From positions 124,001 to 188,000 of the forward strand of contig CANQAM010000001.1 of the NCBI GenBank assembly GCA_947589325.1: a stretch of DNA of 64,000 nucleotides. Direction: 5' to 3'. Position 1 is the stretch's first letter; the number at the start of each line of letters is the position of its first letter. The stretch comes from an uncultured Bacteroidales bacterium. Lineage in GTDB: Bacteria; Bacteroidota; Bacteroidia; Bacteroidales; UBA11471. The position numbers and the translations under genes are program-made. Below, in pieces: positions 28,659 through 30,647 of the stretch. A model generated the notes under the pieces. The model was not told where the DNA came from and did not search any database. It saw only the letters and a program-made list of their open reading frames with translations.

Positions 28659-29060
28659 TCACACCGCCGTCAGTTCCGCCCCGATGCGCCGGATTTCCGC
28701 TTTTATCGATTCCAACCGTTCGGGCGACGGACGTTTCGACCCGCTGATATACTGAGCCAACAGGCTTTGCGCCATACCCAACCGCCGCGCTATGGCAGAA
28801 GCGTTGATTTCAGGGTGCGCCATGAACAGGTCGTATAACGTATTCTCCTTTTTGGAACGGAAAAATCCCTCGAAACTCAAATCCTCGTCGAGTTCCTCCC
28901 AGTGAATGCCGAAAGCATCGTGTGAGAAATTCGCCCGCTGCGCCGGCGTTGCATATTTCAGACGCGGGTAGTCGGCAAACTTTTCGCAAGCCACCCTGCC
29001 GTCGTCCGTCCGAATGCACACCCCCGTATCGGAAAGCCATATATCCCTAACTGTAATCAT
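28659..29060 (-). CDS. DUF2442 domain protein with C-terminal helix-turn-helix
   Basis: N-terminal MITVRDIWLSDTGVCIRTDDGRVACEKFADYPRLKYATPAQR (DUF2442-like) and C-terminal NASAIARRLGMAQSLLAQYISGSKRPSPERLESI (XRE-like HTH). Confidence 0.8.
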   Translation of the reverse strand: MITVRDIWLSDTGVCIRTDDGRVACEKFADYPRLKYATPAQRANFSHDAFGIHWEELDEDLSFEGFFRSKKENTLYDLFMAHPEINASAIARRLGMAQSLLAQYISGSKRPSPERLESIKAEIRRIGAELTAV

Positions 29061-29062
29061 AA

Positions 29063-29300
29063 CTATTTGTTGCTGTTAAAAAATTTGTTCCAATGTTCGG
29101 CAATGATTTCGCGGTTTTCTTCGATGACCGCTTCAACCATTTTCAGCTCCGCCGGCTTTAAGCCGTGATTTTCGACCAACGAAACAGGGTTCAAAGAAAA
29201 CTTTGCCCGTATCCCCTTTCACGACGTGTACGTGAATAGGCTCGTGGTCGTTGGCGTAAAACATGAATCGGAAACCGAATAAAATAAAAATAGTAGGCAT
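29063..29300 (-). pseudogene. DUF4160 domain protein, apparently frameshifted
   Basis: Frame 1: MPTIFILFGFRFMFYANDHEPIHVHVVKGDTG; shifted frame: AKFSLNPVSLVENHGLKPAELKMVEAVIEENREIIAEHWNKFFNSNK*. Start-to-stop span of 238 nt is not a multiple of 3. Confidence 0.75.
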
Positions 29301-29322: not shown

Positions 29323-29330
29323 CAAATATA
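29323..29330 (-). promoter_or_regulatory. TATATTTG -7 promoter element of the DUF4160-DUF2442 operon
   Basis: caaatata on + strand, with a TTTTG -33-like element about 20 nt upstream. Confidence 0.6.
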
Positions 29331-29348
29331 GGTAATAAATTTATTACC
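29331..29348. promoter_or_regulatory. 18-bp perfect palindrome (putative operator) in the promoter spacer
   Basis: GGTAATAAATTTATTACC. Confidence 0.65.
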
Positions 29349-29642
29349 CGCAAAAGAAAACAAAAAAAATTTCCACCTCGCCGTTTTTCCCCGCCGCACT
29401 CTACCCGCCGTGCCGCAAAGAAAAAGAGAAAGCCACCCGCCTATGCGGGTGGCGGGAGAGGGAAGTGCGTCCACTCGCTCCCGACCCGCCGTCCCATTTT
29501 TTTATTTTCCTTTTTTCCTCGTCCTGCTTTTTTATTTCGGGAAAATCCCGACTCCCAACGAATTGATTTTTATACATAACTTTTTGTCTTTTTCAAAAAA
29601 TATATTATATTTGCAACAATAAGGTATTTATAAACAGAATTT

Positions 29643-30647
29643 ATGAATTATAACAATTTGGAAAACTCTGTAAAATACTTCGCGGGAGAACACGGAGTAC
29701 ATTTCGGATTGTCAGTCGATACCGTCGGCTTCCAGTCGGTGAAGCCGGGCGAACACTACCCGCCGACTACCCACCCGTCAGGCTTCTACTTCAACACTGT
29801 CAAGGGGCGCACCCTCCAAGAATACCAACTGCTCTACATCACCAAAGGCAGTGGCACTTTTGCCTCTGCCCACCGTCCCGACCAACCGCTCGAAAAAGGC
29901 TCGCTGGTATGCCTCTTCCCCGACGAATGGCACACCTACCACCCCAATGAAAAAAACGGTTGGAACGAATACTACATCGGCTTCAACGGTGCCGCTGCTC
30001 TGACATACCTCGACGAAGCCGGCATAACGCCGGAAAACCCTATCCTGAAAGTCGGCTTCAATGCCGACTTGGTGCGCCTTTTTCAAGAAGCCATAGAAGT
30101 GGGAAAAACCGACAAAAATGCCGTGCAAGAACGCCTCAGCAGCATCATCGTACACATACTCGGCTTGGCGTGCTACCTCTCGCGCAACAACACCTTCGAA
30201 GACGACAACATCGGTCAGAAAATAGAACGTGCCAAAATCATCATGATAGAAAACCTCTACAAAGAAGTCGATGTCGAAGAACTTGCCGCCAAACTCAACC
30301 TCTCGTACAGTTGGTTCCGTAAACTCTTCAAAGAATACACCGGCTACGCCCCGGCCAAATACTATCAGGAACTCAAAATAAAAAAAGCCGAAGACCTGCT
30401 CGTACACACCTCTTTTTCCGTGAAAGAAATCGCCTATATACTCAATTACAAGTCGTCGGAGCATTTCTTCTCCCTCTTCAAGAAAAAAAACGGATTTACC
30501 CCGCTGGAATACCGCGTCCACATACGCGGCAGCGAATCGGGTGAGAATGTACGCGGAAACCGGCGCGACGAACTGCCCCCGCTTCCCGAACCTTCGGAAA
30601 AACTCATCGACGAGCTGCTCATCGACCACCACCACAGAGAAAATTGA
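29643..30647 (+). CDS. AraC family transcriptional regulator (cupin-like N-terminus, C-terminal HTH)
   Basis: C-terminal NLSYSWFRKLFKEYTGYAPAKYYQELKIKKAEDLL...YKSSEHFFSLFKKKNGFTPLEYR. Confidence 0.92.
   Translation: MNYNNLENSVKYFAGEHGVHFGLSVDTVGFQSVKPGEHYPPTTHPSGFYFNTVKGRTLQEYQLLYITKGSGTFASAHRPDQPLEKGSLVCLFPDEWHTYHPNEKNGWNEYYIGFNGAAALTYLDEAGITPENPILKVGFNADLVRLFQEAIEVGKTDKNAVQERLSSIIVHILGLACYLSRNNTFEDDNIGQKIERAKIIMIENLYKEVDVEELAAKLNLSYSWFRKLFKEYTGYAPAKYYQELKIKKAEDLLVHTSFSVKEIAYILNYKSSEHFFSLFKKKNGFTPLEYRVHIRGSESGENVRGNRRDELPPLPEPSEKLIDELLIDHHHREN

Follow-up and report, generated by a model that had tools for sequence, protein, structure and literature searches.

The locus and its promoter

The window, a stretch of 64,000 nt from the genome of an uncultured Bacteroidales bacterium, contains a short operon in which a broken DUF4160 gene precedes a gene for a DUF2442 protein with a helix-turn-helix (HTH). 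The relevant features all lie on the minus strand:

28659..29060, minus strand: DUF2442-HTH gene, 133 aa, proposed antitoxin and autorepressor (Pfam, AlphaFold2, PDB fold match)
28743..28769, minus strand: recognition helix QSLLAQYIS, residues 98-106 (helix in the model; covaries with the operator half-site)
29063..29218, minus strand: 3′ part of the DUF4160 gene, in a different frame (PF13711 positions 33-65, E=5e-6)
29133..29300, minus strand: 5′ part of the DUF4160 gene, then out of frame, 55 aa; putative toxin, broken (PF13711 positions 1-31, E=3e-8)
29323..29330, minus strand: -7 element TATATTTG, adjoining the operator (sequence; TAnnTTTG in aligned promoters)
29331..29348, minus strand: operator palindrome GGTAATAAATTTATTACC (perfect dyad; kept in orthologues, identical in the sister species)
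29351..29355, minus strand: -33-like element TTTTG (sequence; TTG in aligned orthologous promoters)

Read along the minus strand, the promoter consists of TTTTG (29355-29351), CG, GGTAATAAATTTATTACC (29348-29331) and TATATTTG (29330-29323), and the DUF4160 start codon follows at 29300, ∼22 nt past the -7 element. Housekeeping promoters of Bacteroidota have the consensus TTTG, a spacer of about 19-21 nt, and TAnnTTTG, a form that the window promoter shares with its aligned orthologues, the distance from TTTG to TAnnTTTG being 20 nt. An 18-bp perfect palindrome between TTTTG and the -7 element, filling the promoter spacer, had been described in an earlier note on this DNA, and both observations are borne out: GGTAATAAATTTATTACC is its own reverse complement and occupies 18 of the 20 nt, namely the 18 that adjoin the -7 element.

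Taken as a bare sequence the palindrome is unremarkable. It is the longest gapless palindrome of the whole window, and simulating the window 60 times with a first-order Markov model gives 0.48 palindromes of 18 bp per window, with 38% of the simulated windows having one. As about half a palindrome of this kind is expected per window, the case for an operator rests on its placement and on its relatives. With regard to placement, GGTAATAAATTTATTACC is by far the best spacer palindrome among the 48 TAnnTTTG sites of the window (9-bp arms versus at most 6). The exact 18-mer occurs once in the 2.35-Mb assembly and no second promoter site of the same type is present in this genome, so regulation through it would be local. 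Elsewhere in the genome, the matches with two mismatches and those with a short spacer are in coding regions (a ribosomal-protein cluster, an enzyme gene) and were dismissed as chance hits. Upstream of the operon, in the intergenic region it shares with an AraC-type gene at 29643, there is also a GC-rich, terminator-like inverted repeat, GCCACCCGC..GCGGGTGGC (window 29433-29456).

The DUF2442-HTH protein and the broken DUF4160 gene

The protein encoded by the second gene carries a DUF2442 domain (residues 10-71, Pfam E=5e-13) and an Xre-type HTH (about residues 74-132, HTH_3 E=8e-5). Its HTH_3 score (PF01381) of 23.1 bits is marginally above the curated cut-off of 23, and this score together with the recognition helix of the model places it among the Xre/HTH_3-type repressors. 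The AlphaFold2 model, built from 62 relatives, has a mean pLDDT of 92.8; a single-sequence folding model was poor (pLDDT 54) and was set aside. Over the whole model, both domains included, the closest fold is that of NE0471 from Nitrosomonas europaea (PDB 2AUW), a putative DNA-binding protein for which the available sources give neither operator nor partner, at a borderline Foldseek E-value of 1.4e-3 and 12% identity; weaker matches to the HTHs of P22 c2, SinR and HigA2 follow. Unlike the fold search, PDB sequence searches returned nothing informative; NCBIfam yielded no match, and the PADLOC anti-phage defence models matched neither DUF2442-HTH nor DUF4160.

The earlier note spoke of a DUF4160-DUF2442 operon, which holds for the adjacency of the two genes and their Pfam matches but not for the DUF4160 frame, which is split by a frameshift. 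Compared with intact orthologues (intact copies are found in L036-L039 and L041) the window's DUF4160 gene has a net loss of 2 nt. A sequencing error is unlikely, because the same frameshift is present in the sister species G006. In that species ACG also replaces the DUF4160 start codon and the -7 element reads TATATTTA, its last G lost, so that promoter activity there may be reduced; the palindrome is identical to the window's. Judging from these sequences, the DUF4160 toxin is probably dead in both genomes. Between the two species the DUF4160 remnant (window 29063-29300; L001 versus L005) has 0 substitutions in ∼227 nt, versus 39 mismatches in the remaining ∼866 aligned nt; chance after selection, local exchange and residual constraint are candidate causes.

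A DUF4160/DUF2442 type II toxin-antitoxin system with measured autoregulation is known in Dickeya dadantii, where repression of its own promoter by DhiA amounts to ∼50% and that by the assayed toxin-antitoxin complexes to 70-99% (DhiTA; PMC8198452), the promoter thus being repressed by the antitoxin and more strongly by the complex. Autoregulation in this family is therefore already published. The window locus resembles DhiTA in its domain pair and in having the toxin gene first, and it has a candidate operator for antitoxin autoregulation; the available text of PMC8198452 names no operator and does not state whether DhiA has an HTH. Unlike DhiTA, the toxin frame is broken, and neither the window's genome (G000) nor G006 has an intact toxin gene at this locus. 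As DUF4160 is split across two frames, the window locus is, on its sequence, a degraded, probably non-working member of the DhiTA kind. The same domain pair is found on the Thermus thermophilus plasmid pIOK9, where a type II toxin-antitoxin system has been proposed and no Thermus transformants were obtained when the second ORF had been deleted, behaviour like that of a toxin-antitoxin pair; it differs from the window locus in its 92-aa DUF2442 protein and plasmid setting, and the available text gives no operator (PMC12724237). The window's genome also contains a second, intact DUF4160-DUF2442-HTH operon (L002, G000:C22) with the operator GGAAT-N8-ATTCC, whose DUF2442 protein has an extra C-terminal HTH-like stretch.

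Conservation of the site and its pairing with the recognition helix

At genus and family level the gene turned up in just 2 of 7 genomes, not enough for a judgement of its conservation, and searches at the level of order and phylum, of genome contigs and of viruses were then used, the whole genomes and genome contigs giving 99 DUF2442-HTH loci. Of these, 77 have usable sequence upstream and a recognition helix of QS type; nearly all are from Bacteroidota, and in 73 of the 77 at most one of the 12 half-site positions departs from GGTAAT/ATTACC (58 are exact), the site taking the form GGTAAT-N5/6-ATTACC. In essentially all relatives the site adjoins TAnnTTTG, with TTG upstream. We aligned 35 dereplicated orthologous promoters (clusters <80% protein identity), in which conservation is limited to TTG (28-34 of 35, base by base), the operator and TAnnTTTG (nearly all 35) and drops to background level on either side; since the pattern by which the 35 were picked fixes most half-site positions, the independent evidence in this result comes from the TTG and TAnnTTTG, which stand at a fixed distance. 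The palindrome that the earlier note suggested seeking upstream of orthologous operons is hence kept across Bacteroidales in both position and sequence, in contrast to the DNA on either side of it. No recognisable site was seen at the HTH loci L050, L065, L067, L018, L019 and L027, and L011 has a different long inverted repeat.

The site also depends on the HTH. By the strict pattern it occurs in 29 of 54 HTH clusters (0.36 expected in shuffles) versus 0 of 16 clusters of HTH-less DUF2442 proteins (Fisher P=7e-5), in a set of loci related by descent from which clustering removes relatedness only partly. The HTH-less proteins may regulate by other means. Because loci without any DUF4160 keep the operator, it follows the HTH gene and not the toxin. 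Furthermore, other recognition helices pair with other palindromes in the same place, with both arms altered together:

QSLLAQY: GGTAAT
QSLLAAY: GGATAT or GGTTGT (GGATAT..ATATCC in L010)
NATLLRNY: GGTAT or GGAAT
NATLLRNY / NPTLLRNY (L016, L017): GGTATC..ATACC
AALLRNY (L002, the paralogous operon of the window's genome): GGAAT..ATTCC
HKSLLAKY (L012): GGTCTC..TAGACC
NKSLLARY (L014): GGTATA..TATACC

At one locus (L060) two DUF2442-HTH genes of differing helix class lie ∼1 kb apart.

Viral contigs and phages were searched after this code had been read off and serve as a held-out check. Among viral QS-helix loci with enough upstream sequence, most have a promoter spacer containing the GGTAAT operator; L190 is plainly an exception, and L189 and L191 have slightly altered copies. 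The exact 18-mer of the window recurs in L188 and L196. Two further viral loci agree with their helix class, GGTATT..AATACC accompanying DATLLRNY (L198) and GGTCTC..TAGACC accompanying HKSLLSKY (L197), and L187 (KQSLLAAY) repeats the site of L113, of which it may be the same element. Phage-borne copies can differ in arrangement: L178, L192-L195 and L179 (Bacteroides phage BT-TP2) have two tandem operators ∼30 nt apart upstream of DUF4160, versus usually one in chromosomal copies, and in BT-TP2 (L179 926-1398) DUF2442 and HTH are encoded apart, by gp37 and gp38, a split version of the otherwise fused antitoxin.

An independent family, the HTH-bearing HicB antitoxins of Bacteroidales, uses the same type of HTH, and the same helix goes with the same GTAAT half-site: in the hicAB promoter, GTAAT..ATTAC accompanies QSLLAQY in 11 of 12 HicB clusters and GTAAA..TTTAC accompanies [TS]LLSQY in 15 of 19, neither class having the other's site (Fisher P=1e-7). 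Shared descent weakens this P value but not the match with the DUF2442-HTH half-site. HicAB is unlike the window locus in its antitoxin and toxin domains, and at these loci (L148-L177, two helix classes with two half-sites) the operator overlaps the -7 element by ∼4 nt, whereas the DUF2442-HTH operator adjoins it. The HicB of the window's own genome has the helix AALMRQY and no GTAAT site.

Probable autorepression and the loss of the toxin

The conservation of the site, its absence where the HTH is missing and the way its sequence tracks the recognition helix support the proposal of the earlier note that the DUF2442 HTH is the ligand and that the operon is autoregulated. The palindrome is very probably the operator through which the DUF2442-HTH protein represses its own promoter, and the protein here an orphan antitoxin-repressor. 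We infer that the protein would bind as a dimer, its two recognition helices (QSLLAQYIS) each lying on one GGTAAT half-site. Because its site takes up the promoter spacer right up to the -7 element, the bound dimer would exclude RNA polymerase, which amounts to classical negative autoregulation, the antitoxin repressing its own promoter. Where relatives have an intact DUF4160 toxin, it is presumably a co-repressor, by analogy with DhiTA. In the window's genome the DUF4160 frame is broken, so that through this site an orphan antitoxin-repressor would limit its own expression.

If instead an unlinked transcription factor, for example an AraC-type or global regulator, bound the palindrome, the proximity of DUF2442 would be incidental. 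An AraC-family-like gene does adjoin on the plus strand and many repressors use spacer palindromes, but across unrelated genomes and phages the site tracks whether a DUF2442 HTH is present and which helix it has, rather than the genes around it, and in the window's genome it is the sole promoter site of this sort; we consider such a factor improbable. Still less likely are the two remaining explanations. A chance palindrome in AT-rich intergenic DNA would agree with the simulated frequency, but position-specific conservation over dozens of diverged loci, with both arms changing in step, makes it hardly credible. The dyad could form a hairpin if transcribed, as expected of an RNA element of the operon (a hairpin or leader attenuator), but it lies upstream of the -7 element and thus outside the transcript of this promoter, and it adjoins TAnnTTTG in essentially all relatives, so that this role too is very remote.

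DUF4160 is full-length in 62 of the 98 scorable loci, broken or partial in 17 and missing in 19, leaving 36 of 98 without an intact toxin in a set gathered via the antitoxin, from which toxin-only loci would escape. The operator is retained about equally with and without toxin. On the protein tree, for which few columns are available, the toxin label needs 28 changes, at least 11 of them forced by well-supported branches, and toxin loss with retention of the operator thus appears recurrent from the sequences. Orphan antitoxins are a known phenomenon, for which an anti-addiction hypothesis exists (PMC7354431). The operator, the code common to HicB and the retention after toxin loss were not found in a search of open-access papers.

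Since DUF4160-DUF2442 modules on phages and mobile elements have a like or even an identical operator, toxin-less DUF2442-HTH genes could conceivably be retained as guard repressors, a tentative reading that we regard as unlikely. If it were true, a resident orphan antitoxin would silence the promoter of an incoming DUF4160-DUF2442 module on arrival and neutralise its toxin, and it could also cross-talk with hicAB promoters having the GTAAT half-site. Together, these results equip an almost unstudied toxin-antitoxin family, along with the HicB antitoxins of gut Bacteroidota, with a defined operator and a simple helix-to-half-site code, so that reporters could directly test for cross-talk between different families of toxin-antitoxin systems and for what the many orphan antitoxins do.
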